Position numbers and translations under genes: made by a program. The notes beneath the pieces are model-generated. The model searched no databases. It worked only from the letters and a program-made list of their open reading frames with translations, and was not told the origin of the DNA. A DNA stretch of 64,000 bases from positions 1 to 64,000 of the forward strand of contig JARLGX010000002.1 of NCBI GenBank assembly GCA_031292575.1, in the 5' to 3' direction. Below are positions 15,308 through 50,967 of the stretch, piece after piece. The stretch's first letter is position 1. Each line of letters starts with the position of its first letter. This DNA comes from Paludibacter sp. (GTDB lineage Bacteria > Bacteroidota > Bacteroidia > Bacteroidales > Paludibacteraceae).

Positions 15308-15979
15308 TTAGTTTTTTAGCTCAAGAATAAAACTCTTGAGCAAATCAATATTTTTCAGCCCAGGTTTCAATTCGAATTTACTATTCAAGTCGATTCCGGC
15401 AAATTTTTTATGTTCAATTTTCAAAATCGCTTCGGCATCGTCGGCAGCAATGCCACCGCTAAGCAAAAAAGGTGTTTCGCCAAGGTATTCATCCAACATT
15501 TTCCAATTAAATTTCAATCCAGAACCGCCGTAAGCATCCGTTTTCGTGTCGAAAAGGAAATAATCGCACGCACCTTCATAGTCTTTTGTTACTTTGAAAT
15601 TATATGCCTCTGCAATAGGAAATGCTTTGATAACAATGTATCCAACCTTTTTGAGTTCTGTACACATATCCACCAACTCAGTGCCGTGAAGTTGCACGCC
15701 GTCAAGGTCATATTTATAGGCAATAGTCAGGATATTCTCCAGATTTTCATTCACAAACACGCCAATCTTTTTGATGCTTTTAGGCAATGCTTTCAACGTG
15801 GCAATGTCCAACGGTTCGGCAAAGCGAGGAGACTTCGGGTAAAAGATAAAACCCATAAAATCGGGCTTTAATACCGCCACCGCTTGTATGTTTTCGGGGA
15901 ATTTCATCCCGCAGATTTTGATAAGACCCCTAACCCCTAAAGGGGAATTGAAGTCACTTTTGTCACTAAAATTTTCCAT
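15308..15979 (-). CDS. trpF: Phosphoribosylanthranilate isomerase with repeat-encoded N-terminus
   Basis: Amadori isomerase converting N-(5-phosphoribosyl)anthranilate to CdRP. It has 223 residues. The enzyme proper starts at IKICGMKFPEN (catalytic Cys23) and includes GGIAADDAEAI and the catalytic Asp in GIDLNSKFE. Residues 1-18 are an extension ending NSPLGVRG encoded by one arm of the 15925-16042 inverted repeat. TrpF proteins usually begin M-IKICG; here the Met position reads CTT (Leu), so translation must enter from the ATG at 15979, which lies in the element's loop. It follows trpC by 54 nt. Confidence 0.94.
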   Translation of the reverse strand: MENFSDKSDFNSPLGVRGLIKICGMKFPENIQAVAVLKPDFMGFIFYPKSPRFAEPLDIATLKALPKSIKKIGVFVNENLENILTIAYKYDLDGVQLHGTELVDMCTELKKVGYIVIKAFPIAEAYNFKVTKDYEGACDYFLFDTKTDAYGGSGLKFNWKMLDEYLGETPFLLSGGIAADDAEAILKIEHKKFAGIDLNSKFELKPGLKNIDLLKSFILELKN

Positions 15980-16042
15980 AATAAGAAGACTTTCAACAAT
16001 CGGTTGTAATATTTTTTCCTCCCCCTTTAGGGGTTAGGGGTT
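15925..16042. repeat. Inverted-repeat (SPLG) element at the trpC/trpF junction
   Basis: Arm 1 (15925-15957) contains ACCCCTAACCCCTAAAGGGG; arm 2 (15998-16042) carries the same core inverted. Arm 1 encodes the TrpF peptide NSPLGVRG. Arm 2 contains the trpC stop codon (TAA at 16036-16034), so the last TrpC residues (KNP) are element-encoded. The trpF ATG is in the loop. SPLG is a working label used in this annotation. Confidence 0.85.
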
Positions 16043-16819
16043 CTTTAATTTTTCAATAAAATTATTCAATGCTTCCGCCGGATTTTCTTCTTTCATAAAG
16101 TTCTCACCCATTAGGAAACCTTTATAACCGGCTTTGCGCAATTCTTTTACAGTTTCTACTTTTGAAATACCACTTTCGCTCACTTTCACAAACTGGTCCG
16201 GAATTAAAGCAGCCAAATCAAACGACGTTTGGATGCTTTGTTCAAACGTTTTCAGGTTGCGGTTGTTCACACCGAGCATATCCACGTAGTCGTTTGCATG
16301 ACCGAGTTCTTCCGCATTATGCACTTCGAGCAATACTTCCAATCCAAGTTCATGAGCTTTGCGGGCAAGTTCCAGTGTTTGTTCTACCGGTAGAGCCGCA
16401 GCAATGAGCAACACCACATCAGCACCAATAGCTTTGGCTTCGTAAAGCTGGTATTCGTCAATCACAAAATCTTTTCGCAAAATAGGGCACGACACGGACG
16501 ATCGGGAAGCAATTATGTCGAACGGAGAACCGCCAAAGAATTCCATGTCTGTGAGAATGGAAATGCCCGAAGCACCCGCAGCACTATACCCCGAAGTCAC
16601 TTCCATCACGTCGGCATCCTCGTTAATCCAACCGAGTGACGGTGATTTACGCTTGAACTCCGAAATTATTCCCGAATCGGAATTCAACAGACTTTGCTTC
16701 ATCGACAAGCATGCACGTAAAAATGCAGGAGCTTTCTCTAACACCGAAATGGGCATTGAGAGTTTACGCGCAGCAACTTCAACCTTTTTACTTTCTATTA
16801 TTCTATCTAAGATTGTCAT
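16034..16819 (-). CDS. trpC: Indole-3-glycerol phosphate synthase
   Basis: Converts CdRP to indole-3-glycerol phosphate. It has 261 residues, a complete TIM barrel: ISEFKRKSPSLGWI (52-65), LRKDFVIDEYQLYEA, LEVLLEVHNAEEL, LGVNNRNLKTF and VSESGI hold the usual catalytic Lys, Glu, Asn and Ser. TrpC and TrpF are separate proteins here, not fused as in enterobacteria. The C-terminus ends LKNP and its stop codon falls inside an inverted-repeat arm (15998-16042). The trpD-trpC gap of 200 nt is full of short hairpins. Confidence 0.96.
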   Translation of the reverse strand: MTILDRIIESKKVEVAARKLSMPISVLEKAPAFLRACLSMKQSLLNSDSGIISEFKRKSPSLGWINEDADVMEVTSGYSAAGASGISILTDMEFFGGSPFDIIASRSSVSCPILRKDFVIDEYQLYEAKAIGADVVLLIAAALPVEQTLELARKAHELGLEVLLEVHNAEELGHANDYVDMLGVNNRNLKTFEQSIQTSFDLAALIPDQFVKVSESGISKVETVKELRKAGYKGFLMGENFMKEENPAEALNNFIEKLKNP

Positions 16820-16830
16820 ATTCTATTTTA

Positions 16831-17017
16831 GAAACCTGAAAGGGTTTAATTTGAATAACCGTGGCTAAAACCCACGGATACTGAGAAACTACTGACCCAA
16901 CCCCAGAGGGGTTGAACTATCTTGCATGTTATTCAACCAATTCGTGGTTGCTTTGTTCGTACTTCATTCCGTGGGTTGCACCCACGGTTATTCACATTCA
17001 GCCACTTCGTGGCAGCC
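16831..17017. repeat. Cluster of short palindromic repeats in the trpD-trpC gap
   Basis: The 200-nt gap holds a series of small hairpins: AAACCTGAAAGGGTTT, CCGTGGCTAAAACCCACGG, CAACCCCAGAGGGGTTG, CAACCAATTCGTGGTTG, CCGTGGGTTGCACCCACGG and GCCACTTCGTGGC. The CCGTGGG/CCCACGG motif occurs twice, and the unit resembles intergenic palindromic repeats I associate with Bacteroidota genomes. This family differs from the SPLG elements nearby. No gene is present. Confidence 0.8.
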
Positions 17018-17019
17018 AA

Positions 17020-18015
17020 TCATTTATAAATCTCCACAAACTTCACAAAAGCTTTTTTAGCATAACCTCCGGCTAATGATTCAGCAGCTTCGGCTTTACA
17101 TTGTTCCAATGGTTTTTGTGGACAGCGTGTTTGTATGGCAATGGCCGAATTAATTACAACAGCATCGCGCTGTGCATCGGTAGCTTTATTTTCAAGCACA
17201 TTCATAAATATCCTGGCAGCATCGTCCACCGAATTTCCACCCCAAAGTTCTTCTTGTTTCAGTTTCTTGAACCCAAGTTGCTCAGGCGTGTAAACAAATT
17301 CGCCACTGTTATTCACAATTTTGCAAGTATCGGTGAGCGAAATTTCATCATACCCATCCAACGAATGAACAATAGAATACTGGCAACCCAGGTTTTGGTA
17401 AATATAATTATATAACCGCATCATCTTCAAATTATAAACGCCCAGGCATTGGTAGTGCGGTTGAACAGGACTAATCAAGGGCCCGAGGACATTGAAAAAC
17501 GTCCGAACTCCCAGATTTTTACGTACCGGAGCCACATTTTTCATGGCAGGATTGCAAAACGGAGCATGCAGATATGCAAAGTGCGCTTCGTCCAACGAAC
17601 GTTTAATGATGTCCTGATCAACAGTGAATTTTGCGCCGTAATACTCCAATACATTAGACGAGCCGCTCACCGAAGTTGCACCATAGTTTCCATGTTTGGC
17701 TACCGTATAACCCGCACCCGCTACAGCGAAACAGCTGGCGGTAGAGATATTGAAGGTATTTTTACCATCGCCACCTGTACCAACAATATCCAGAGGTTCA
17801 AAATCCGACAGATTCATCGGAATGGCCGTATTCAGCAAGGCGTCCCGAAAACCGATCACTTCATCCAGTTCAATGCTGCGCATTAAAAACACGGAGATAA
17901 AAGCCGCAATCTCCGATTCGTTGTATTTTCCCAACGCTATATTCGTCATCACCTCGGCAGCTTCCTGCTTGCTAAGCGACTGATGATTGAATAATTGATT
18001 AAGTATTTGTTTCAT
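17020..18015 (-). CDS. trpD: Anthranilate phosphoribosyltransferase
   Basis: Transfers phosphoribose from PRPP to anthranilate. It has 331 residues with the helical N-terminal domain (residues 1-70), the PRPP-binding GTGGDGKNTFN (79-89), KHGNYGATSVSGSSNVLE and the anthranilate-site segment RTFFNVLGPL. The start at 18015 gives a canonical N-terminus (MKQILNQLF). TrpD is a stand-alone protein, not fused to TrpG. Upstream lies the 18081-18395 tandem array, downstream the palindrome cluster, so its mRNA is flanked by structured spacers on both sides. Confidence 0.96.
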   Translation of the reverse strand: MKQILNQLFNHQSLSKQEAAEVMTNIALGKYNESEIAAFISVFLMRSIELDEVIGFRDALLNTAIPMNLSDFEPLDIVGTGGDGKNTFNISTASCFAVAGAGYTVAKHGNYGATSVSGSSNVLEYYGAKFTVDQDIIKRSLDEAHFAYLHAPFCNPAMKNVAPVRKNLGVRTFFNVLGPLISPVQPHYQCLGVYNLKMMRLYNYIYQNLGCQYSIVHSLDGYDEISLTDTCKIVNNSGEFVYTPEQLGFKKLKQEELWGGNSVDDAARIFMNVLENKATDAQRDAVVINSAIAIQTRCPQKPLEQCKAEAAESLAGGYAKKAFVKFVEIYK

Positions 18016-18080
18016 AAAATTTTATTATTTCAATTTGAAATAGACTGTTTTATTTTTTCTAAACCGTTATTTGGCAAACA

Positions 18081-18395
18081 CACAATGACGTCTGACAAGC
18101 GCACAATGACATCTGTCAACCTTCACAGTGGCATCTGACAACCTTCACAATGCCATTTTTCATCCGCACAATGCCATCTGTCATCTTCACAATGACATCT
18201 GTCAACCTTCACAATGCCATCTTTCATCCGCACAATGGCATCTGACAACCTTCACAATGACATCTGTCAACCTTCACAATGGCATCTGTCGAGCGTGCAA
18301 TGACGTCTTTCATCCGCGCAATGGCATCTTTCTTTCGCACAATGACGTATGACAACCATCACAATGGCATCTATCAATTGTACAATGACATCAGA
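18081..18395. repeat. Degenerate 21-22 bp tandem array (15 units) between trpG and trpD
   Basis: CACAATG-like anchors begin at 18081, 18102, 18124, 18146, 18167, 18188, 18210, 18231, 18253, 18275, 18296, 18317, 18338, 18360 and 18381, so the spacing is always 21 or 22 bp. A typical unit is CACAATGACATCTGTCAACC. Many units contain the inverted repeat TGACA-TC-TGTCA; others read GCCATCTTTCATC. The array starts a few bases after the trpG stop and fills most of the 384-nt trpG-trpD gap. No protein-coding frame is conserved across units, because 21+22 is not a multiple of three. Confidence 0.9.
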
Positions 18396-18399
18396 AAAT

Positions 18400-19029
18400 T
18401 TATTTTTCCAGCCAATTCTTCAACATTTGCTCCCCATCGGGAGTCAAAACCGATTCCGGATGAAACTGAACGCCACGCACATCGTACGTTTTATGTGCCA
18501 ACGCCATTATCATTCCTTCTTCGTCAACAGCAGTAATGTTCAGACATTCCGGCAATGTCGATTTCTCGGCAGCCCACGAATGGTAACGTCCCACTTCGAG
18601 CCTCTTGGCCAACCCGTTGAACAAAACATCTTCTTCCAACACATCCACCATAGAACTTACGCCATGATGCACTTCAGTCAGATTAATCAATGTTCCGCCA
18701 AAGGCTTCGGCAATGGCTTGCTCGCCCAGACAAACTCCCAGAATGCTTTTGGTTGGTGCATAAGTTCTGATAACATCCAGCAAAATGCCCGATTCGGAAG
18801 GAACTCCGGGTCCCGGCGAAAGAATGATTTTATCAAAATGTGCAATATCTTCCAATGCTATCTTGTCGTTGCGATGCACTTCCACGTCGGTGTAACCCAA
18901 CTTTTTCACTGCGTGTACCAAATTATAGGTAAACGAGTCGTAATTATCGAAAACTAAAATACGACAACCCCTATCCCCTGAAGGGGAACTGGAGTTAGTA
19001 TCATTTTGTATATTTATCTGAGTACTCAT
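18400..19029 (-). CDS. trpG: Anthranilate synthase glutamine amidotransferase subunit with repeat-encoded N-terminus
   Basis: Type 1 glutamine amidotransferase supplying ammonia to TrpE. I choose ATG 19029 (MSTQINIQ) over an in-frame TTG 24 nt upstream, giving 209 residues. The enzyme proper starts at RILVFDNYDSFTYNLVH; catalytic Cys lies in GVCLGEQAI (many homologues have H where this has E) and His/Glu in GVQFHPES. The extension contains NSSSPSGDRG, encoded by the element arm at 18966-18999. Homologues normally start M-RILVFDNYDS; here the Met position is TGT (Cys), so the native start is gone. Confidence 0.95.
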   Translation of the reverse strand: MSTQINIQNDTNSSSPSGDRGCRILVFDNYDSFTYNLVHAVKKLGYTDVEVHRNDKIALEDIAHFDKIILSPGPGVPSESGILLDVIRTYAPTKSILGVCLGEQAIAEAFGGTLINLTEVHHGVSSMVDVLEEDVLFNGLAKRLEVGRYHSWAAEKSTLPECLNITAVDEEGMIMALAHKTYDVRGVQFHPESVLTPDGEQMLKNWLEK

Positions 19030-19128
19030 AAGATTTCTAAATTTCAATTTCAAAATAATCGGTTGTAATTCAGTCCCCCTTTAGGGGTTAGGGGTTCTTT
19101 TCTTCCTCCCCTTTAGGGGTCGGGGGTC
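18966..19128. repeat. Inverted-repeat (SPLG) element plus an extra arm at the trpE/trpG junction
   Basis: Arm 1 (18966-18999) contains AACCCCTATCCCCTGAAGGG and encodes TrpG residues NSSSPSGDRG. Arm 2 (19057-19097) contains CCCCTTTAGGGGTTAGGGGT in inverse orientation. A third partial copy (19105-19128) touches the trpE stop codon (TGA, 19129-19127). The trpG ATG is in the loop. Confidence 0.85.
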
Positions 19129-20593
19129 ATCTCCCTGACGCCACATCCACCGCTTTTTTCAACGCAGCCAGTTTATTATTCACTTCCTGCAGTTCGCTTT
19201 CTTCGTCCGATTTGGCAACAATTCCGGCACCAGCCTGATAGTAAAGTGTATTATTTTTACTGACGAACGAACGGATTGTTATTGCTTGGTTCATGCTTCC
19301 ATCAAAACCGATATACCCCAAACAGCCACCATACGGACCGCGGTCGTGCGGCTCAATGCTGTCGATCAATTGCATCGCCTTAATCTTCGGAGCCCCCGAA
19401 AGCGTTCCGGCAGGGAACGTATCGGCAAAGAGTTTAATCACTTTCGTGTCGGGCTTTAGCTTGCCACTCACGCTCGAAACCAAGTGAAGTACGTGCGAAT
19501 AATACTGCACTTCGCGAAATACTTCTACTTCCACATGATCGGCATTGCGACTCAAATCATTCCGTGCCAGATCCACCAGCATCACGTGCTCAGCATTCTC
19601 CTTTTTATCAACACGGAGTTTTTCGGCCAGTTGAAAATCTTTTTCATCATCACCGGTGCGCCGGAATGTTCCTGCAATCGGTTTGATATATGCTTTCTGT
19701 TTCTTGGCGTCCACTACCAAATGCGCTTCGGGCGACGATCCAAAAATACGGAAATCTCCAAAGTTGAAGTAAAACAAATACGGCGACGGATTCACCGAGC
19801 GCAAGGTGCGGTACAGCATAAAATCATCACCTTTAAACTCTTGGTAAAAACGGCGCGACAGCACAATCTGGAACACATTTCCTTTAAAACATTCCAGTTT
19901 ACCGCGCGTCACCATTTTTTTATAATCCTCGTTCGAAATGTCTGATTTTTCTTCACCAACCGCAGAAAAATTATATGTCGCAATATTGTTATTAGTCAGA
20001 ATTTCTTCAATATCGGCAATAGCAGAAATTTCATTCTCCAGTAAATTCTCTATAATCGTCAGTTCGTTGTTGAAATGATTCACTGCAATAATGTATTTAA
20101 ACAGCACATAATGCAAGCCCGGCATGCTTCCCGGAACGGTTTCGCGAGCCTTGAGTTTTACGTCTTCGAAATACTGTACCGATTCGTAAGAAGAATAGCC
20201 AAACAAGCCGTCAATGCCCACCGGATTGTCATTTTTCACCAACTCTACCGATTTAAGAAATGCATCGAAACGCTCTGCTACAGTAAGTTTTCCAGTTACG
20301 GGCGTTTCAATTTTGCTCCCATCGGGGTATTCCTCTTTAATTACAAAATGATTCACCGATATTCCACCAATCGGACAAAAACCGATGTAGGAATAGCTAT
20401 TTTCCACACCATGATAATCGGAACTTTCCAACAGTACCGAGTTGGTATATAAATCGCGTATTTTGAGATAAATTCCTACCGGCGTCTGCAAATCGGCCAG
20501 CATTTTTTTTGAGTTTACAAAAAGCCTACCCCTAGCCCCTAAAGGGGAACTGAAGTTAGTTTTGTCTCCTAAATTTATATTTTGACTTTCCAT
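19127..20593 (-). CDS. trpE: Anthranilate synthase component I with repeat-encoded N-terminus
   Basis: Chorismate-utilising enzyme making anthranilate with TrpG-derived ammonia; usually feedback-inhibited by Trp. It has 488 residues with a C-terminal chorismate-binding domain: FQIVLSRRFYQEF, NPSPYLFYFNF, GSSPEAHL, PIAGTFRRTGDDEKD, FPAGTLSGAPKIKAM and IDSIEPHDRGPYGGCLGY. The N-terminal regulatory part includes LLESSDYH, the usual site of the LLES Trp-binding motif, so feedback inhibition is expected. Residues 12-22 (KTNFSSPLGARG region) are encoded by the 20527-20562 repeat arm, directly before LFVNSKKMLADLQ. Confidence 0.95.
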   Translation of the reverse strand: MESQNINLGDKTNFSSPLGARGRLFVNSKKMLADLQTPVGIYLKIRDLYTNSVLLESSDYHGVENSYSYIGFCPIGGISVNHFVIKEEYPDGSKIETPVTGKLTVAERFDAFLKSVELVKNDNPVGIDGLFGYSSYESVQYFEDVKLKARETVPGSMPGLHYVLFKYIIAVNHFNNELTIIENLLENEISAIADIEEILTNNNIATYNFSAVGEEKSDISNEDYKKMVTRGKLECFKGNVFQIVLSRRFYQEFKGDDFMLYRTLRSVNPSPYLFYFNFGDFRIFGSSPEAHLVVDAKKQKAYIKPIAGTFRRTGDDEKDFQLAEKLRVDKKENAEHVMLVDLARNDLSRNADHVEVEVFREVQYYSHVLHLVSSVSGKLKPDTKVIKLFADTFPAGTLSGAPKIKAMQLIDSIEPHDRGPYGGCLGYIGFDGSMNQAITIRSFVSKNNTLYYQAGAGIVAKSDEESELQEVNNKLAALKKAVDVASGR

Positions 20594-20655
20594 ACAAATA
20601 AATTAAATAATCAGTACTAATATTTCTTTCTCCCATTTAGGGATTGGGGGTTATT
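20527..20655. repeat. Inverted-repeat (SPLG) element at the trpB/trpE junction
   Basis: Arm 1 (20527-20562) contains ACCCCTAGCCCCTAAAGGGG and encodes the TrpE peptide NFSSPLGARG. Arm 2 (20625-20655) is a degenerate inverse copy (CCCATTTAGGGATTGGGGGT) reaching the trpB stop codon. The trpE ATG (20593) lies between the arms. Confidence 0.82.
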
Positions 20656-21898
20656 ATTGTTTAAAATATTTCACGTAAGTATCCATATCCTTATCGCCCC
20701 TACCCGAAACCGTGATGACCACAATATCATCGGGTTTGAAAGTATCTCTTTCTTTTTTCAAAAGAGCGAGTGCATGAGCCGATTCAATAGCCGGAATAAT
20801 TCCTTCCAACCTTGTTAATTCAAAAGCTGCTTCCAACGCTTCATCATCGTTAATAGGATGAACCTTGGTACGGCCAATTTTAGCAAAAAATGCATGTGCC
20901 GGACCAATTCCGGGATAATCCAAACCTGCTGAGATAGAATACGGTTCGATAATCTGTCCGTCTTCATCCTGAATGAGCAATGTTTTGGCTCCGTGAATAA
21001 TTCCGGTTGTACCCAAACTAATCGTTGCTGCAGTTTCTCCGGTTTCAATTCCTAATCCGCCAGCCTCAGCCGAAATGATTTTCACGCGTTCGTCGTTCAG
21101 ATAATGGTAGTAAGTTCCCATAGCGTTGCTTCCACCACCCACGCAAGCCATCAAATAATCGGGATAATCGCGGCCAATTTGTTCCTGCAACTGCCATTTA
21201 ATTTCCTCGCTGATAACAGACTGGAAAAATCCAACCATATCAGGGTAAGGGTGAGCTCCCACCGTAGAACCTACAATATAAAACGAATCAGGATTTGAAC
21301 ACCAATAACGAAAGGCATCATTAGTGGCATCTTTTAGCGTCATGTTTCCACTTGTTACTGACTCTACTGTTGCCCCCAACATACGCATTTTCTGAACGTT
21401 GAGAAACTGACGCTCTACATCGGTTTTCCCCATGAATACAATGCATTCCAAACCCATCAACGCACAAGCGGTAGCAGTGGCCACACCGTGTTGTCCGGCA
21501 CCGGTTTCGGCAATAATGCGGGTTTTACCCATGCGCTTTGCCAGGAGTATTTGTCCCAATGCATTATTGATTTTATGAGCACCGGTGTGGTTCAGATCTT
21601 CCCGTTTCAGGTAAACGTTCGTGCCGTATTCAGCCGACAAACGCTTTGCAAAATACAATGGCGACGGGCGTCCCACGTAGTTCTTCAGCAAATCGTAGTA
21701 TTCAGCCTTAAACGAAGCATTGTCTTTGATAGCATAAAAAGCTTCTTTGAGCCTTTCGAATGATCCATGCAGAATTTCAGGAATATATGCTCCTCCAAAT
21801 TCGCCGTAGTAACCGTTATTATCTATTGAAAAACGACCCCCAACCCCTGAAGGGGAGCTGAAGTTAGTGTTGTTTTGCATATCTTTCTCTTTATTCAT
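20654..21898 (-). CDS. trpB: Tryptophan synthase beta subunit with repeat-encoded N-terminus
   Basis: PLP enzyme condensing indole with serine to make tryptophan. It has 414 residues. PLP Lys109 lies in HTGAHKINNALGQ, phosphate binding in CVGGGSNAMG, and the start of the fold is YYGEFGGAYIPE. The N-terminus MNKEKDMQNN then NFSSPSGVGG comes from the 21836-21869 repeat arm; ATG 21880 (MQNN) is an alternative start that still includes it. As first gene of trpBEGDCFA it follows the trp attenuator (21961-22099). This is the TrpB1 type, with TrpA encoded at the far end of the operon. Confidence 0.96.
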   Translation of the reverse strand: MNKEKDMQNNTNFSSPSGVGGRFSIDNNGYYGEFGGAYIPEILHGSFERLKEAFYAIKDNASFKAEYYDLLKNYVGRPSPLYFAKRLSAEYGTNVYLKREDLNHTGAHKINNALGQILLAKRMGKTRIIAETGAGQHGVATATACALMGLECIVFMGKTDVERQFLNVQKMRMLGATVESVTSGNMTLKDATNDAFRYWCSNPDSFYIVGSTVGAHPYPDMVGFFQSVISEEIKWQLQEQIGRDYPDYLMACVGGGSNAMGTYYHYLNDERVKIISAEAGGLGIETGETAATISLGTTGIIHGAKTLLIQDEDGQIIEPYSISAGLDYPGIGPAHAFFAKIGRTKVHPINDDEALEAAFELTRLEGIIPAIESAHALALLKKERDTFKPDDIVVITVSGRGDKDMDTYVKYFKQ

Positions 21899-21955
21899 AC
21901 TAGTTGTTTTTAAATAAACAGTTGTAATTTAGTTCCCCTTCAGGGGCTAGGGGTT
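21836..21955. repeat. Inverted-repeat (SPLG) element at the 5' end of trpB
   Basis: Arm 1 (21836-21869, with CCCCTGAAGGGGAGCTGAAG) encodes TrpB residues NFSSPSGVGG. Arm 2 (21920-21955) is the inverse copy (AGTTCCCCTTCAGGGGCTAG) lying in the mRNA leader, between attenuator and start codon. The trpB start is in the loop. If folded, the pair would bury the trpB start. Confidence 0.85.
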
Positions 21956-21960
21956 AAATA

Positions 21961-21994
21961 AAAAAGGCTTATCGTGAGTCCGACAAGCCTTTTT
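21961..21994 (-). terminator. trp attenuator terminator
   Basis: On the minus strand AAAAAGGCTT (21994-21985) pairs with AAGCCTTTTT (21970-21961), giving a G/C core followed by a run of U. It stands upstream of trpB, so it is a premature (regulatory) terminator rather than the end of a gene. Confidence 0.88.
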
Positions 21995-22042
21995 GTAATA
22001 TCTTTTTAATTTGACAATATACATAGGTGTAACATCTCACGA

Positions 22043-22099
22043 TTAGCTAATCTGCAAGTGCCACCACCAAAATTTGTTTATTGTCAAAAGTGAGTTCAT
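22043..22099 (-). CDS. trpL: trp operon leader peptide (18 aa, WWW)
   Basis: Reads MNSLLTINKFWWWHLQIS and stops at TAA. The three consecutive TGG codons lie at 22069-22061. AAAGGA directly precedes the ATG as a possible ribosome-binding site. Three Trp codons in a row in an 18-codon frame between the promoter and a premature terminator is the hallmark of an attenuator leader; it is too short and too placed to be chance. Confidence 0.88.
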   Translation of the reverse strand: MNSLLTINKFWWWHLQIS

Positions 22100-22124
22100 T
22101 TCCTTTTTGTTTATTTTATGACTG

Positions 22125-22156
22125 CAAAGATGATAAATTATTTTTATTTGAGCAAG
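22125..22156 (-). promoter_or_regulatory. Promoter of the trp operon
   Basis: On the minus strand CTTG (22156-22153) and CATCTTTG (22132-22125) are separated by 20 bp. Each box has one mismatch to the Bacteroidota -33/-7 consensus. The predicted transcript starts about 20 nt before the leader-peptide ATG. Confidence 0.65.
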
Positions 22157-22216
22157 AAAAATATCATTTTTAATGAAATTCGCACCTAAATCCAGCGACA
22201 GATAGGAAGAAAATAA

Positions 22217-22963
22217 CTATTCATTTAAGATCTTCCGGTAAATACAAGTCGCATTTGAACATATTTTGCAGCCATATTCATGATGTTTCAGGTGTTTACC
22301 AATACCGATAATTCCGCTTACGGATTTGCGTGGAGTCATCAAACAAGAGTCGCTCAACGTAATACCCGTTTTGTTTTCTCCAATCAAATTAAACAATGTT
22401 TTTTGGTCAGCCAACGGCCAGTTGCAATAACCCGGACTGTACCGGTTGGATATTTTTAATTGTTTTGAAAGAAATGAATCACGCAGGTTTTCCTGAATTT
22501 TATCCATGGCTTTTTCAACAGTTAATGAACCAATTGCATCCAGAATGTAAGCTTCCATGATGTCGCCTTGTTCATTAAGTTGGTTTGTCATTCGGGTAAA
22601 ATCTTCGCCGGCTGTGCAAAGAAACAAAGCGGCATGCGTGGATTCTTTGATATACCCGCACACTTGCCGGCCAAGGTTCAATTCCTGACCATCAATTCGA
22701 ATCATTCCCTGTTTTGCATTCAGCTCTTCAATATCCTTTACAAGGTATCCACCCGAAATCGCGGTATCGAAGTTTAATTCAGCCAGTATTTCACGAATAA
22801 AAATAACAGCCGGATGCTCTTCCTCCAAATCAGCAGATTGTACAAATTCGATTATTTCATCGAATGTAGGTGCTACTTCGGCAAAAGTAAAATGAAAGAA
22901 ACCCCCATCCCCTAAAGGGGGGCTAAAGTTACTTTTAACTTTTGGATATTCTAAATCATTCAT
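22217..22963 (-). CDS. MetH activation-domain-like protein with repeat-encoded N-terminus
   Basis: 248-residue stand-alone protein resembling the SAM-binding activation domain of cobalamin-dependent methionine synthase: RYSPGYCNWPLADQKTLF and GITLSDSCLMTPRKSVSG match its SAM-site signatures. In MetH this domain helps reductive remethylation of cob(II)alamin. Genes of this kind accompany corrinoid methyltransferases, so reactivation of, or interaction with, the 24018-24689 corrinoid protein is inferred. A C-terminal Cys cluster (CKICSNATC) could bind a metal or Fe-S centre. N-terminal residues about 11-21 (SNFSPPLGDGG) come from the 22899-22932 repeat arm. It is last in a ten-gene minus-strand run; no terminator is obvious between it and the trp promoter. 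Confidence 0.78.
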   Translation of the reverse strand: MNDLEYPKVKSNFSPPLGDGGFFHFTFAEVAPTFDEIIEFVQSADLEEEHPAVIFIREILAELNFDTAISGGYLVKDIEELNAKQGMIRIDGQELNLGRQVCGYIKESTHAALFLCTAGEDFTRMTNQLNEQGDIMEAYILDAIGSLTVEKAMDKIQENLRDSFLSKQLKISNRYSPGYCNWPLADQKTLFNLIGENKTGITLSDSCLMTPRKSVSGIIGIGKHLKHHEYGCKICSNATCIYRKILNE

Positions 22964-23021
22964 TATAATAAATTTAATGTCGGTGGAACTAATATTGTTC
23001 CCCTTTAGGGGTTAGGGGTTT
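22899..23021. repeat. Inverted-repeat (SPLG) element between the MtaA-like gene and the MetH-activation-like gene
   Basis: Arm 1 (22899-22932, AACCCCCATCCCCTAAAGGG) is translated as NFSPPLGDGG. Arm 2 (22985-23021, TTCCCCTTTAGGGGTTAGGG) is the inverse copy starting just after the upstream gene's stop. The downstream ATG (22963) lies in the loop. Confidence 0.85.
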
Positions 23022-23023
23022 AT

Positions 23024-24016
23024 TTATGAATTATAAGCTTCTACGGTTTCCAAAAATGCGCGGATATTCACTTCGGGCACATGTGGAGGCAAATCGCAAC
23101 CGCTTGAAATGACAAAGTTTTTATAGCCTGCCATTTTTTGGAGTAATGACCGTGTTTCAAGTTTAACTGACTCTACGCTTCCTTGTTTGAAAACGCCTAC
23201 AGGATTCAGGTTTCCCATAACAACAACATCGGACGGACATTGTTTCAAGACTCCTTCCATGTCAATAGCGTTTCCGAAATGCAAAGCCCTTGCTCCGCTT
23301 GCAACCATGGCATCCGTACATTGGCCGGTATTGCCGCAATTATGCAATATCACGGTGAAGCCATCATCCTGAACTGCATCAACAATTTGTTTCACAAAAG
23401 CAGTAGAATAAACCATGCAATCGTCGTTTGAAAGCAATCCTGCGGCGGGCTCTGCAATGATTACTCCTGCTGTTCCGGTAGCTTTTAAAGCTTTGCAATA
23501 ATTCACAAGAAGTTCTGTGCATTTCGATAAAAGACTCAACATGGTTTCCGGGTCGATATAAATTGCCACCATAATTTCGGACATATCATACAACCTTCCT
23601 GCCAAAGAGTATGGCCCAATACAACCGGAAAAAACAGGTTTATCTTTAATATTTTCAGCAGCAAGCTTATTTGCTAATAAATATTGCGGAATGCGGCCCT
23701 TATCAAGTGTTGGAACTACGAGTGCTTCAACTGAATCGACATCTGAAACAAGTCGTTCCAAAACAGAAGGAACTTCATTTTCAGGAAGATTAATTTTGGA
23801 ACCAAAAGCCTCAGCTTCTACCGTTAAATCCATGATGGAAGTACAAGCAGTCGTATTAAAATTGTCAGACAAATATTGAATGGCCTGATATTGTACATTC
23901 CCATCTGTAACTGCATCTCGAACTGTTTTTCCAAGTGCCTCGATACCCGGATGTGTCATGATAGGCAGGGCCGCCACATTGGGACTTTGCAAAATTTGAT
24001 CTATAAATTGTTTCAT
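23024..24016 (-). CDS. MtaA/CmuA-type methylcobamide methyltransferase (UroD family)
   Basis: 330-residue uroporphyrinogen-decarboxylase-fold protein of the MtaA/MtbA/CmuA branch. Its zinc-ligand set is present: His225 and Cys227 in LHNCGNT, Cys307 in SSGCDLPP; in characterised members these activate a thiol acceptor or bind the methyl-acceptor site. True HemE lacks this Cys motif, so haem synthesis is not the role. The start is 1 nt beyond the stop of the corrinoid-protein gene, indicating tight coupling; the likely job is moving a methyl group between the corrinoid protein and a carrier. Bacteroidota are not known to make coenzyme M, so the acceptor (perhaps tetrahydrofolate) is uncertain. 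Confidence 0.85.
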   Translation of the reverse strand: MKQFIDQILQSPNVAALPIMTHPGIEALGKTVRDAVTDGNVQYQAIQYLSDNFNTTACTSIMDLTVEAEAFGSKINLPENEVPSVLERLVSDVDSVEALVVPTLDKGRIPQYLLANKLAAENIKDKPVFSGCIGPYSLAGRLYDMSEIMVAIYIDPETMLSLLSKCTELLVNYCKALKATGTAGVIIAEPAAGLLSNDDCMVYSTAFVKQIVDAVQDDGFTVILHNCGNTGQCTDAMVASGARALHFGNAIDMEGVLKQCPSDVVVMGNLNPVGVFKQGSVESVKLETRSLLQKMAGYKNFVISSGCDLPPHVPEVNIRAFLETVEAYNS

Positions 24017-24017
24017 T

Positions 24018-24689
24018 TTAAGCTGATATTTTATCTAACCACAGAATGCCTTCCTGCGGATTTTTCCCGTAACCGTCGGCACCAATTGATGCGGCAAATT
24101 CGGCAGAAAGCGGTGCTCCTCCAACGATGACTTTTGTTTCGGGAACAGCCGATTTAATAGCCTCAATCACAGGTTTCATGTGGACCATAGTTGTTGTTAG
24201 CAAGGCTGAAATTCCTACAACTGCATTCGGATTTTGCTGAACAGCTTCCACGAATTTCTCTATTTTTACATCAATTCCAAGGTCAATTACTTCCCAGCCG
24301 GCACCTTCTACCATCATGCTAAAGAGATTTTTGCCAATGTCATGCAAATCACCAAAAACAGTTCCGATAATGAATATTCCCTTGCGTTTAACCGAACCAT
24401 TTGCAAAAAACGGTTTTAAATGAATCATTGAAGCACTCATCGCTTTTGCCGAGAGCAACATCTGGGGAACAAATATTTTATTTTCACTAAACTTCTGACC
24501 CACTTTGTTCATGGCAGAGATTAATGCTTCGTTCAAAATCTCACCAGGTGTAACCCCTGCTTCCAATGCTTCTTTTGTGATCTCATCCGCACCGGGCATT
24601 CCTTTCATTTGTGGCGGATAAGGCGATGCAAGATTAATTTTACCAAACTCTACGCATTCGGATAGTTTTTCTAATAATTCCTGATTCAT
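24018..24689 (-). CDS. Corrinoid (B12)-binding methyltransferase protein, MtaC/MtmC type
   Basis: 223-residue methyl carrier. An N-terminal four-helix cap domain (about 1-95) is followed by a Rossmann-like B12 domain with the lower-ligand motif D114-L-H116-D-I-G119 in VFGDLHDIGKN, then SALLTTTM (161-168) and GGAPLS (190-195). His116 would coordinate cobalt. This layout equals MtaC, MtmC and the B12 modules of MetH. It is followed directly by the MtaA-like gene and preceded 26 nt upstream by rhaT. No methanol, methylamine or MttB-type partner is present; the nearby UroD-fold genes are the candidate substrate methyltransferases. Confidence 0.93.
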   Translation of the reverse strand: MNQELLEKLSECVEFGKINLASPYPPQMKGMPGADEITKEALEAGVTPGEILNEALISAMNKVGQKFSENKIFVPQMLLSAKAMSASMIHLKPFFANGSVKRKGIFIIGTVFGDLHDIGKNLFSMMVEGAGWEVIDLGIDVKIEKFVEAVQQNPNAVVGISALLTTTMVHMKPVIEAIKSAVPETKVIVGGAPLSAEFAASIGADGYGKNPQEGILWLDKISA

Positions 24690-24715
24690 AATTTATTATT
24701 GTGTTTTATTTTGTT

Positions 24716-25777
24716 TTATTTCCCGGCTAAAATTTGTTCTCCATAATAGCTCCCGTAGGATATAATGACGGATGAAGCGAATAAAAGTACTAATGCAAAA
24801 ATTAAAATGTAATATGTTCGTTTCGAAACCTGTTTCCATTCTTTCATAAAAAGTCCGACGCCGTAGCTAAAGAAGATCAGCATCGTCATGTGCAGTACCC
24901 AACTAATAAACTGAAAATTACCCATGCGCACATGTCCTAAACCATAAAAGAAAAACTGTCCATACCAGAGCGCTCCGGCCAAAGCCGACCACATCGTATT
25001 TTTCGCACGTTGACCCAGACTGATGCCACTTGAAGCCGTGAATTCTTTGAGCGTTTTATCTTTTATTCCGGCAATGATAAACCAGATAAGATTTACTCCA
25101 AAACATCCGGCCGTAGAAACGATCAGCTTGGCATTTCCTTCAAATTCGCCGGCTCCGTGAAGTGCTGCCATGTCGGCAATGGGCTTTCCGGTTTCAAGTG
25201 AAATATTAAATACAGCAGATAGCAGTCCGCCAATAATCGCCAGTACCAAACCGGTTGTCATATTAAAGTGGGCGGAATCTTTTAATTCGCCTAAATCTTT
25301 TTCTTTTTTGAAACCCGCCAGCCCGATAAAGATAATTCCGGCAATAGCTATGATCATTCCAACAAGCACAATGCTACTTCCGGGTCGGTTAAAGTAATGC
25401 AACACTTCTCCGTGTAGCAGCAAGGGCGTCATGGTTCCCAAAATAGCCGAAAGTCCTATGCTTATGGAATAAGTGAGCGAATATCCAATCTGACGAATGG
25501 CAAACCCAAACGACATACCGCCGAAACCATACACTCCCCCCAGCCAAAATGCGCCCCAGAATGCCGATGACGGAGCTGTTTTTAGAATATAAAAGAAATC
25601 GGGGACAGTCAGATATCCGACAATCAGCGGCATAATGAGCCATGCAAAAGCCGATTGCACAAGCCAGAATGTTCCCCACGACCAACGTTTTGTTTTTTGA
25701 CTGGGTAAATAACAGGTTGAAGCCGAAGCACCACCTACCGCGTGAAAAAATGTACCAAGTAATGGATTTGAAGTCAT
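24716..25777 (-). CDS. rhaT: L-rhamnose/H+ symporter RhaT family
   Basis: 353-residue inner-membrane transporter with about ten membrane segments. The N-terminus (NPLLGTFFHAVGGASASTCYLP) and WGTFWLVQSAFAWLIMP match the RhaT family, which imports L-rhamnose and related 6-deoxyhexoses with a proton. It lies between rhaM and the corrinoid-protein gene. No rhamnose isomerase, kinase or aldolase is in the window. Position in this cluster makes a modified deoxy-sugar a possible substrate (inference). Confidence 0.9.
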   Translation of the reverse strand: MTSNPLLGTFFHAVGGASASTCYLPSQKTKRWSWGTFWLVQSAFAWLIMPLIVGYLTVPDFFYILKTAPSSAFWGAFWLGGVYGFGGMSFGFAIRQIGYSLTYSISIGLSAILGTMTPLLLHGEVLHYFNRPGSSIVLVGMIIAIAGIIFIGLAGFKKEKDLGELKDSAHFNMTTGLVLAIIGGLLSAVFNISLETGKPIADMAALHGAGEFEGNAKLIVSTAGCFGVNLIWFIIAGIKDKTLKEFTASSGISLGQRAKNTMWSALAGALWYGQFFFYGLGHVRMGNFQFISWVLHMTMLIFFSYGVGLFMKEWKQVSKRTYYILIFALVLLFASSVIISYGSYYGEQILAGK

Positions 25778-25880
25778 ATGCGAAATTATTAGTCTCCAAA
25801 ATTCCCGAATGGGTACTTTAAGACCAAGTTTATCAAATTAGATTGATGAAAAATATCGATAATAAGATATTGCACTATTT

Positions 25881-25910
25881 AAGTCTCCCTTCGGGAATTT
25901 AGGAGGCTAT
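25881..25910. repeat. Hairpin repeat overlapping the rhaM stop codon
   Basis: AGTCTCCCTTCGGGAATTTA followed by GGAGGCT forms an imperfect hairpin (AGTCTCC ... GGAGGCT, with CCCTTCGGG inside). The rhaM stop (TAG, 25909-25907) lies inside it. It resembles the SPLG arms in style but not in core sequence. Confidence 0.6.
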
Positions 25911-26227
25911 ACATGAAAAATTTCTTCCATATCCGCCCAAAACTCACCTACATTACGAGTTTCGATAGGTTGCATCAACGGTTTTACCAGATCCCACCAA
26001 CACTGGGTTTCGGAATCGGCAGCCATTTTTCTCATATCACCTTCAAAATCATCTCCAACATATTCAAAATAGGAAAACAATACATTATCCTTTTTATAGA
26101 TGGAATAGTTCTGTATGTTGCAAGCTGTTATCATAACCAAAACCCCCGGCCAAACGGCTGCATGTTGTTTCACATATTCGTCGGCACATTCGGGTTTCAG
26201 ATGAATTATTTGTCCAAAACGTTTCAT
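25907..26227 (-). CDS. rhaM: L-rhamnose mutarotase
   Basis: Interconverts alpha and beta anomers of L-rhamnose so that imported sugar can be used. It has 106 residues, normal for RhaM (~104), with a ferredoxin-like dimeric alpha-beta barrel fold. Expected active-site positions are present: Tyr18 and His22 in EYVKQHAAVWPG, Tyr in NYSIY and the Trp pair in CWWDLVKP. It lies 43 nt after a UroD-family gene and 129 nt before rhaT. The stop codon falls in a hairpin repeat. L-fucose mutarotase is a different family, so rhamnose or a close analogue is favoured. Confidence 0.92.
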   Translation of the reverse strand: MKRFGQIIHLKPECADEYVKQHAAVWPGVLVMITACNIQNYSIYKKDNVLFSYFEYVGDDFEGDMRKMAADSETQCWWDLVKPLMQPIETRNVGEFWADMEEIFHV

Positions 26228-26246
26228 AATATTTTTGTTTTATAGA

Positions 26247-26274
26247 GTAGAGACGCACTGCAGTGCGTCTCTAC
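26247..26274. repeat. 28-bp perfect palindrome at a gene end
   Basis: GTAGAGACGCACTG (26247-26260) is followed directly by its exact reverse complement (26261-26274), with no loop. The stop codon (TAG) of the 26271-27362 gene is inside it. Similar GAGACGC palindromes recur in many genomes as dispersed repeats. Confidence 0.9.
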
Positions 26275-27362
26275 GAGTTGATTGCATTAAACATCGCCTC
26301 CACATTTGCTGGTGGAATATCGGGCAAAATAGCTTCGTGACTGGGTGAAATAATTAATCCGGTCGGAAATAATTGTTTCAATTCATGAACTTTAGCTGTA
26401 ATTTCATTAGGTTTGCCATTGACCAATAAATGTTGCGCATCCACGCCACCACAGAAGGATGTTTTTCCAGCAAATCCTTTTTTTAGCGTTTGCGCATCCA
26501 TGTCAGCTGCCAATGCCTGAATGGGATGAATGGAATCAACACCCAACTCAATTAAATCCTGAATAATCGGGTAAATGGACCCGCACGAATGATGAATCAC
26601 CTTCAGTCCGTAACGCTTAGCCTGATCAATCAGTTTTTTCGTTCCCGGAAAAACATAGGTCCGCAATGAATCGGGATCGACCATCAAACCATTTTGACTG
26701 CCAAAATCATTCCCAATCAAAACAGCATCTAAATAACCTTTTGTTGCTTCGTAAAAAAGCTCGTTTGCCTTCAGATAAAATTCAGTTATCCGGTCAATCA
26801 CAGCTGTAAACATATCGGGGTTCATCAACATCACCATCAATGCTTTTTCCATACCAAAAGCGGCACAGGCATCCTGAAAATGAGCACTCCACATTACGCC
26901 CATTCTCACATAATCCGGATTGGCAGCCATAGCTAACCGGCGCGATGCTTCAACATCAAGATACAAAGCCGGATCGGGCCAGGGAAAAGTATCAACCAAA
27001 GTCGGATCGTCAATATCTTCGAAAAAACCGGGAGCAGTCAGCGTTCTTTCATCAGGTTTGTCGTCGTGAGAAACTTTAGCAAATTTGAATGCACAGGCAA
27101 TGTGATTCGACGGCGGAAAATTATAGGGAACTTCAATCGGGTATATATCATCGTCGAGTTTTATTTTCAATTCATCAATGGAATTTACTTTGAAATATTC
27201 CAGTAAACCCGGAACAGCTGCAGGCACCGGCAATCCGAGCCACGAAGCCGGACGATCGACCGGTTGGTTGGCAATGGTGGCGAGGAAACGTTCTTTGTGA
27301 GTCATAGAACCCCTAGCCCCTAAAGGGGAACTGAGATTACTATTGTTTATTTTGTTTTCCAT
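26271..27362 (-). CDS. UroD-family methyltransferase-like protein with repeat-encoded N-terminus
   Basis: 363-residue uroporphyrinogen-decarboxylase-fold protein. It begins properly at MTHKERFLATIANQPVDRP, a common UroD-like start; the preceding 19 residues (with NLSSPLGARG) come from the 27308-27340 repeat arm. Here, unlike in trpG or trpF, an ATG (Met20) is kept after the repeat and could be used. His248 and Cys250 in HHSCGSIYP and Cys304 in SFCGGVD resemble the zinc/thiol site of MtaA-type enzymes rather than HemE. With the corrinoid protein downstream it is a candidate substrate:corrinoid methyltransferase. The substrate is unknown. Confidence 0.83.
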   Translation of the reverse strand: MENKINNSNLSSPLGARGSMTHKERFLATIANQPVDRPASWLGLPVPAAVPGLLEYFKVNSIDELKIKLDDDIYPIEVPYNFPPSNHIACAFKFAKVSHDDKPDERTLTAPGFFEDIDDPTLVDTFPWPDPALYLDVEASRRLAMAANPDYVRMGVMWSAHFQDACAAFGMEKALMVMLMNPDMFTAVIDRITEFYLKANELFYEATKGYLDAVLIGNDFGSQNGLMVDPDSLRTYVFPGTKKLIDQAKRYGLKVIHHSCGSIYPIIQDLIELGVDSIHPIQALAADMDAQTLKKGFAGKTSFCGGVDAQHLLVNGKPNEITAKVHELKQLFPTGLIISPSHEAILPDIPPANVEAMFNAINS

Positions 27363-27419
27363 TTTTATAAAAGTATAAATACTAACATTTCTTATTTCCC
27401 TTTAAGGGTTAGGTGTCAT
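27308..27419. repeat. Inverted-repeat (SPLG) element between the SSS transporter and UroD-family gene
   Basis: Arm 1 (27308-27340, AACCCCTAGCCCCTAAAGGG) is translated as NLSSPLGARG. Arm 2 (27392-27419) is a degenerate inverse copy (TTCCCTTTAAGGGTTAGGTG) ending at the SSS stop. The ATG (27362) lies in the loop. A short relic (ATTAGGGGTT, 28991-29000) sits at the other end of the SSS gene. Confidence 0.8.
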
Positions 27420-50310: not shown

Positions 50311-50856
50311 TTATTTTGTTGGTTTTGTGGAGATTCGGTCGAAAAATGGATTTTTTGACGAACAACTTATCGGAATTCCATAGATATTGCTGCAACCTGG
50401 CATCATTTCCAACTCTTGAGCCACACGACCCACTGAAAACATTACTCGACTATCTACACGTTTGTCGGCTGCAACAGAGCAAGCTGAACCAATGGCAATT
50501 CCGACATCTACAGAATTAAGCGAACATGGAATTTCAGGAAATTCATTTTTGGCTGCACAAGTCTGAAAACCACAGTAACCACAATTCAGGCTATGTATAT
50601 GTTGTTTTGTTCCAATCAACACAATTGCATCGGCATAAAGTATGTTTGCGGCATCGCGTAATATAAATTTCAAACCTGATTTTTCGCTATAAACTAACAT
50701 TGCATCCGAAAGTTGTTTGATAGTTTCGCCCGTAACTGTTATAACTTCAATAATGTCAAACCCCTTTCCTTTCGGAGCTGTGCGTGCAGCAGTCATCATT
50801 TCATTTGCCACTTGCAGTGAACGTTCGTGGCGTGTATCTCTTTCGTTGATTAGCAT
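50311..50856 (-). CDS. DUF2148 ferredoxin-domain protein
   Basis: 181-residue cytoplasmic protein of the DUF2148 family, which carries a likely Fe-S or metal site: the CGYCGFQTC cluster (about residues 91-99) and other conserved Cys (SACSVAADKR). Family function is unsettled. The start ATG is directly adjacent to an inverted-repeat arm (50857-50891), so its mRNA 5' region is made of the repeat. It follows the IMPase gene on the same strand with a gap of 99 nt. Confidence 0.83.
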   Translation of the reverse strand: MLINERDTRHERSLQVANEMMTAARTAPKGKGFDIIEVITVTGETIKQLSDAMLVYSEKSGLKFILRDAANILYADAIVLIGTKQHIHSLNCGYCGFQTCAAKNEFPEIPCSLNSVDVGIAIGSACSVAADKRVDSRVMFSVGRVAQELEMMPGCSNIYGIPISCSSKNPFFDRISTKPTK

Positions 50857-50967
50857 AAACCCTGACCCATAAAAGGGGAATTAAATTGGTATTAATTGTT
50901 TCTATATAGAATTCAGAAAATAAAAATTAAGAGACAGAGCTAATCCAGTTCCCCTTTAGGAGTTATA
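50857..50967. repeat. Degenerate inverted-repeat (SPLG) element between IMPase and DUF2148 genes
   Basis: Arm 1 (50857-50891, CCCTGACCCATAAAAGGGGA) is adjacent to, and not translated in, the DUF2148 gene. Arm 2 (50936-50967, AGTTCCCCTTTAGGAGTTAT) is the inverse copy and carries the IMPase stop codon (TAA), so its last residues NS are element-encoded. It is the only copy found outside 15-28 kb. Confidence 0.75.

Follow-up and report, generated by a model that had tools for sequence, protein, structure and literature searches.

How can an operon go on being translated when palindromic DNA occupies the junctions between its genes? The question is raised by a stretch of 64,000 nucleotides (nt) from Paludibacter sp. 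(GenBank assembly GCA_031292575.1, contig JARLGX010000002.1, positions 1 to 64,000; hereafter the window), in which an original prediction had placed six inverted-repeat elements at gene junctions, four of them in the trp operon, and had proposed that each supplies a start codon and N-terminal codons to the gene downstream. The feature is real and strongly non-random. Judged from sequence, these short elements are probably nuclease-less members of a mobile-element family whose full form carries a DUF559 homing-type endonuclease (EDxHD, Vsr-like) beside or between like palindromic arms. The results suggest a little-known type of mobile DNA that is able to live inside essential operons. Genomes are named here by our own handles; the window is positions 1–64000 of contig C40 of G000, an assembly of 3,456,064 bases that is 99.6% complete.

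With up to 3 mismatches allowed, the window held 13 matches to the arm core, against 0 in 100 shuffles, and 12 of these paired into six inverted pairs at the six junctions that had been named. The elements span 106–127 nt. The paired geometry was as predicted, but the loops, expected at 50–70 nt, measured 68–89 nt from core to core. All six elements, and the genes read from them, lie on the reverse strand. Element 1 (15927–16040), between trpC and trpF, has its stop-side core at 16022–16040 and its start-side core at 15927–15945; the trpC stop codon (16034–16036) falls within the stop-side arm, as had been claimed, and the TrpF start ATG (15977–15979; MENFSDKSDFNSPLGVRG-) lies within the element, giving a fused trpF of 15308–15979. 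Element 2 (18968–19094), between trpE and trpG, contains the TrpG start ATG (19027–19029; MSTQINIQNDTNSSSPSGDRG-) of a fused trpG (18400–19029), and the 13th core is an extra stop-side arm upstream of it (19108–19126). At the trpB/trpE junction, the trpB stop lies 3 nt ahead of element 3 (20529–20650), within which the TrpE start ATG is found (20591–20593; MESQNINLGDKTNFSSPLGARG-; fused trpE, 19127–20593). Element 4 (21837–21953) separates the trp leader from trpB and holds the TrpB start ATG (21896–21898; MNKEKDMQNNTNFSSPSGVGG-; fused trpB, 20654–21898). Outside the trp genes, element 5 (22902–23018) lies between an MtaA-like gene and a gene resembling the MetH activation domain (PF02965), which is fused (22217–22963) and starts within the element (ATG at 22961–22963; MNDLEYPKVKSNFSPPLGDGG-), and element 6 (27310–27415), between an SSS and a UroD gene, offers a possible UroD start (ATG at 27360–27362; MENKINNSNLSSPLGARG-) to an optionally fused UroD/MtaA-like gene (26271–27362). 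The fused trp genes and UroD were identified by profile matches. A long RNA stem with the start codon between its arms was predicted for each of the six copies (z from −1.85 to −6.8, the lowest being element 1). None of the six holds a nuclease gene.

For TrpF, TrpG and TrpB, profiles from NCBIfam and Pfam start within a few residues of the element end: the best TrpF profile starts at residue 20, most TrpG profiles start at residues 23–24, and TIGR00263 starts at residue 29 of TrpB. When the N-termini of orthologues with and without the element were compared, relatives free of it had an ATG at the position matching the element end. Thus, the native start has been replaced, and the loss of the native Met of trpF and trpG, proposed originally, is borne out. 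In five of the six window genes no in-frame ATG follows the element before +19. The exception is UroD, which retains an ATG directly after element 6 (27303–27305), so that its fusion, and the start that the element supplies, is optional. The elements carry an ATG start in the loop, together with N-terminal codons for (N)FSSPLGARG-like peptides, in the way that had been described, and we infer that these peptides are made.

The core recurs across the assembly, with 99 forward and 97 reverse matches (up to 3 mismatches) and 0 for a reversed-pattern control. We surveyed the window together with 40 stretches around core matches (396,422 bases in all), chosen from the best 100 core places and from TGAA variants, a sample outside which some weaker copies lie. 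With arms called at up to 4 mismatches and genes by a simple hexamer-based caller (350 genes, 87.8% coding), this sequence contained 156 arms, of which 38 stand singly and the rest form 59 inverted pairs. Co-directional genes stand on both sides of 52 of the 59 pairs; five of the other seven belong to an array on contig C14, one lies inside a gene and one is at a contig edge. Junctions with an arm were co-directional in 73 of 79 cases, compared with 173 of 230 without one (nominal Fisher p 6e-4). We called a junction tight if the upstream stop lay in the element or no more than 15 nt before it and the downstream start lay in the element or no more than 25 nt after it. By this definition 42 of 52 junctions were tight, while the mean over 2000 random placements in arm-free co-directional spacers was 1.35 and the maximum 7; the predicted concentration at stop/start junctions thus greatly exceeds what random placement gives. 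In 12 of the 52 the upstream gene's stop falls within the element itself. As the two arms are not alike in their inner parts, each pair is polar, and its polarity matched gene direction in 44 of 52 cases (random flips: mean 26.1, maximum 36). Flush placement as a relic of overlapping ancestral stop and start codons found no support, since the aligned ends of TrpC and TrpF are 26–728 nt apart in the seven other genomes or contigs with both genes.

Related genomes differ greatly in how many copies they hold. The core (up to 2 mismatches) is present in 40 of 120 family genomes, and within the genus its count is 1 each in G034 and G114, 121 in G001 and 138 in G079. G001 has 20 pairs, 17 of them co-directional and 11 tight; G333/G380, which belong to another family and whose arm is a CCCCC variant, have 11 pairs, all 11 co-directional and 9 tight. 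G152, a genome with the 12-mer, held a different repeat, with 2 pairs and 0 tight.

How such an element could be read by the ribosome depends on its two arms. The stop-side arm (TGACCCCTAACCCCTAA; TGACCCCTAACCCCTAAAGGGG) has stop codons in all three frames. In its mirror, the start-side arm (TTCAGTTCCCCTTTAGGGGTTAGGGG), TAG closes two frames and the third is open; SPLGVRG is therefore the sole possible open frame of TTCAGTTCCCCTTTAGGGGTTAGGGG. The called start lies inside the element at 24 of the 52 junctions (class A) and outside it at 28 (class B). Among the 22 class A elements with the start in the usual range, 15 use the main frame (SPLGVRG), 5 the second and 2 the third; the second frame is open in those five because CTTCAG or its like replaces CTTTAG, which removes the stop. 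The uniform frame of the window copies, at first taken as a sign of selection, was dropped as such, since it is mostly forced by the stops in the arm and usage genome-wide is not uniform. An ATG 50–70 nt ahead of the element end was found in 22 of 22 class A and 8 of 28 class B elements, as was an open frame through the last 60 nt, both class A counts being partly so by definition. Four class A genes, including UroD, have an ATG within 7 nt after the element, and 20 of 24 have none within 18 nt. By eye, the apparent hydrophobic part of a signal peptide starts right after the element in several class A genes. The length difference between the trpB extensions of G000 and G001 is a multiple of three.

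Nuclease genes lie beside other copies of the arms. In G000, a small gene flanked by two elements (L057, 16047–16487, reverse strand) matches PF04480 (DUF559) with E 1.8e-31. We examined 34 of 45 DUF559 matches in 18 genomes, 18 of them stand-alone genes and 16 in long frames. Among stand-alone loci, 13 of 18 had a core-like arm within 400 nt, 11 of them on both sides; among long-frame loci the figure was 5 of 16, 3 of them on both sides. Four stand-alone loci came from stretches selected by the core; without them the arm is present at 9 of 14, and on both sides at 7. In G033, G093 and G104 a listed core lay within 140 nt of 4 of 7 DUF559 matches. An inverted-repeat test independent of the arms (score of at least 14) was positive at 23 of the 34 loci, or 20 of 30 once the core-selected four are set aside, and at 0 of 135 shifted controls, and at 10 of 29 further loci from 90 class genomes and 0 of 106 controls. 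Taken together, 33 of 63 DUF559 loci (30 of 59 without those four) are flanked by inverted repeats against 0 of 241 controls, counts that are not independent, as several loci are orthologous and some repeats belong to other sequence families. Over the 120 family genomes, with 14 that have weak DUF559 matches alone scored as lacking it, a strong match was present in all 14 genomes that have 10 or more arms and in 29 of 106 others (nominal Fisher p 1.2e-7); its rank correlation with arm count was 0.64. Of the 90 class genomes sampled, 53 had DUF559.

A profile built from 42 DUF559 domains matched PDB entries 3hrl (E 5.7e-31) and 3r3p, the homing endonuclease I-Bth0305I (E 5.6e-6). The predicted DUF559 fold (predicted local distance difference test score 86) gave the same two structures, 3hrl first (E 9.0e-7) and 3r3p second (E 6.4e-4). 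Twelve columns are invariant among the 42 sequences, including E24, D53, E64, D66, H70 and D79. Where DUF559 is flanked by element copies, these scored 52–60 as direct repeats in G001, G000 and G061, above shuffled maxima of 23–28.

DUF559 also occurs inside conserved proteins. In a Pfam survey of ten proteins, it was found in frame inside UvrA, ValS- and LeuS-type class I tRNA synthetases, PurL, SpoIID, MeaB with methylmalonyl-CoA mutase, and MetH, and fused ahead of HisF; further cases were seen by eye. No intein or Hint splicing family was among the Pfam matches of these ten. In three genera, ValS-type copies are interrupted near one place, after residue 202–204 of the window ValS (named by eye), which has the empty form, and at this site a few loop residues are replaced and not merely interrupted. 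In G333 the unit ahead of hisF directly follows TAAATCCGATG, as if it had been inserted just past the start codon. Descent of DUF559 by host gene is seen only in part; the two PurL copies belong to different DUF559 lineages. Among the 59 pairs of G000, one short element lies in frame inside a protein, an aminotransferase (PF01041; L060, 2249–3541).

For the trp operon, ten genomes or contigs were compared. In G001 and G079 an element lies at trpD/trpC and is fused to a TrpC lacking its own Met; at that junction, G000 shows a native ATG and palindromes of other kinds. Start halves or elements are fused to trpB, trpE and trpG in G094, the CCCCC variant is present at trpD, trpE or trpG in G072 and G089, and G034 retains native ATGs. 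Because the occupied trp junctions differ among genomes, the insertions are lineage-specific and recurrent. Two junctions carry both forms in different species: at trpB/trpE, G000 has a short element and G094 has DUF559 with arms on both sides, and at trpE/trpG, G000 has a short element, G094 an element, and G061 a broken DUF559 gene with arms on both sides.

We propose that DUF559 would cut DNA at or near gene starts or existing elements, and that repair would then copy the unit in, driving its spread. Short copies could arise when DUF559 is lost through recombination between flanking element copies; such recombination would leave one short element, because DUF559 lies between two clear copies in three of the five composites tested. 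The order might also be the reverse, with DUF559 homing into short palindromes that were already there. Once in place, the stop-side arm would end upstream translation, the AT-rich loop would offer a start, and the start-side arm would be open into the next gene. Insertion over a stop/start junction would thus do little harm, since the element has stops in three frames on one side and a loop start and an open frame on the other. The useless old start upstream may then have been deleted, leaving the element flush with the stop codon. Extended beyond Paludibacter, this would be a Bacteroidota-wide class of mobile element that combines an EDxHD/Vsr-type nuclease with ribosome-readable arms, inserts in its full form in frame into essential enzymes without splicing or at operon junctions, and has nuclease-less copies, dozens of them in a genome, that took over the start codons of trp, nif and other biosynthesis genes; to this wider version we give somewhat less than even credence.

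Several observations weigh against deriving the short elements from a nuclease-bearing form. Strong DUF559 matches are present in 13 of 80 arm-free genomes, and 5 of the 18 stand-alone DUF559 genes have no arm of the core family, two of these five having another inverted repeat (scores 33 and 19). Arms are on one side at L263 and L270 and in an unexpected orientation at L249. G000 itself has 4 DUF559 matches to 59 pairs. The flanking copies are weak in G094 (34 against a shuffled 28) and are not detectable as repeats in G079 (22 against a shuffled maximum of 36). The p-values reported above are too small, because genomes and loci are related. A codon-position test for selection on the peptide was negative, with 2 synonymous to 20 nonsynonymous changes in 17 main-frame class A elements and 8 to 36 in 28 class B elements. 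Sequence alone does not account for the flush filling of junctions, and spread to junctions unrelated to each other is not classical homing. Because the Paludibacter composites have DUF559 between two elements, the nuclease could be a passenger and not the source.

That last point is shared by an explanation in which the elements are built by the host as intercistronic signals, for transcript stability or re-initiation, and are spread by gene conversion, with DUF559 homing into abundant palindromes. It would account for the polarity of the elements and their filling of junctions, for the RNA stem predicted for each window copy, with an ATG in its loop, and for the two copies that flank DUF559 in Paludibacter. 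However, copy number is patchy among close relatives, from the single cores of G034 and G114 to the more than one hundred of G001 and G079, the occupied junctions vary between species, and copies inside proteins, namely the L060 aminotransferase element and the DUF559 units of PurL and ValS, have no intercistronic role. We regard this explanation as unlikely. Slightly less likely still is that the elements are sequence remnants, past which translation starts at non-ATG codons so that the peptides are never made. The negative codon-position test agrees with it, as does the statement (PMC3733652) that N-terminal repetitive extragenic palindromic (REP) sequences elsewhere are often thought to be extragenic. 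The lack of a nearby downstream ATG in 20 of 24 class A genes speaks against it, as do an ATG 50–70 nt ahead of the element end and an open frame through its last 60 nt, each counted in all 22 class A elements against 8 of 28 in class B, with the caveat of definition noted above.

It is similarly improbable, in our estimation, that the elements are REPs or their paired form (REP doublets forming hairpins, REPINs), mobilised by a REP-associated tyrosine transposase (RAYT; Y1 type) and found at junctions because selection tolerates them there. They do form paired inverted palindromic units as well as single arms, and REPs are known to prefer co-directional spacers according to the same source (PMC3733652); random placement in such spacers predicts 1.35 tight junctions, however, where 42 were observed. 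G000 has three Y1_Tnp genes, and by eye a degenerate core copy lies about 400 nt past one of them (L032), yet by eye its RAYTs sit among other palindromes. A core (up to 4 mismatches) was within about 1.5 kb at 4 of 33 Y1_Tnp loci examined (from 46 matches), which by rough estimate is unremarkable at the density of arms. Base composition, counted over 8 positions per side, revealed no GTAG consensus at the outer arm ends, which read (T)GA before CCCC and T after GGGG. RAYTs were present in 11 of 14 arm-rich genomes and 58 of 106 others (p 0.15), although their rank correlation with arm count is still positive (0.37, compared with the 0.64 of DUF559), and no Y1_Tnp match was found in G039, G076 and G092, assemblies 55–89% complete with 23–75 cores. 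As the mobiliser, then, a RAYT is unsupported by the flank and co-occurrence tests.

The elements can be set beside several known systems. DUF559 (PF04480) is homologous by sequence and fold to I-Bth0305I, an EDxHD (Vsr-like) homing endonuclease; unlike elements of the I-Bth0305I type, its gene lies outside any group I intron or intein, beside palindromic arms read as linkers or as stop and start, and many copies have no nuclease. REPs and REPINs share the short palindromic unit, its arrangement in inverted pairs and a location chiefly between co-directional genes, and REP ends can supply a stop codon (PMC3733652). The present elements differ from them in that no GTAG tag or RAYT link was seen, and in being polar, filling the stop-to-start junction and carrying a loop start codon. 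In a comparison with CGTC-tagged REPs based on the tag alone, TTCGTC occurred within 24 nt of the core in 7 of 52 start-side arms and 1 of 52 stop-side arms. The original analogy with Rickettsia palindromic elements (RPEs) holds for palindromic insertion tolerated in frame in proteins, a likeness of insertion mode, and proteins with an N-terminal RPE-1 are expressed in vivo according to PMC3733652. The nearest kin found here, however, are DUF559 nuclease units whose arms are the same or similar, and the Paludibacter copies differ from RPEs in lying mostly at gene junctions with stop and start function and in having a nuclease-bearing form. Inteins, too, are nuclease-bearing in-frame insertions in conserved enzymes, but here no splicing family was matched (ten proteins) and the arms are Pro/Gly-rich linkers. 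We found no paper describing these elements among the open-access literature matches listed, most subscription journals being outside the search, and there is a fair chance that they are a class of their own. The proposed reading would show how selfish DNA, equipped with a translation stop and start of its own, can spread in compact operons and leave them intact, it would link DUF559, a domain of unknown function, to mobility, and it could account for odd N-termini of annotated Bacteroidota proteins (trp, nif, his and signal peptides).

Further copies were seen in other settings. Contig C14 of G000 ends with an array (L046, 2437–3867) of 14 CCCCAAGCCCC-type arms, in five pairs and four singles, which encloses a DUF559 gene outside operon junctions, and single arms accompany a DUF559 gene at 749.8–752.1 kb of G001. 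Another DUF559 gene of G000 (L258, 1389–1871) has a different, 39-nt inverted repeat and lies within an apparent direct duplication of its surroundings of about 75 nt. A second, half element (L057, 15823–15841) is in frame within an ABC transporter gene whose start already lies in an element. In the nif cluster of G000 (L053, 12105–18146), elements are fused to NifB and NifV and, judged by eye, to a nitrogenase-like subunit.

Around the trp genes of the window, the Bacteroid-trp leader RNA (Rfam RF01692) matches 21982–22119 with 48.2 bits (gathering score 49), which bears out the label "leader" in the original prediction; element 4 lies between this leader and trpB. Rfam MIR9486 matches to the hairpins were far under the gathering score and were judged to be chance. 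The trpG/trpD spacer (18085–18395) contains about 12 imperfect direct repeats with a unit near CATTGTGAAGGTTGACAGATGTCATTGTG, and by eye none are in the same spacer of nine relatives. The trpD/trpC spacer (16835–17015) has other short palindromes (CCGTGG..CCACGG, AACCCCTCTGGGGTT) of a type found by eye around the RAYT genes of G000. Elsewhere in the window, a weak lone start-side arm with 4 mismatches (50859–50877) lies directly ahead of a gene at 50311–50856.

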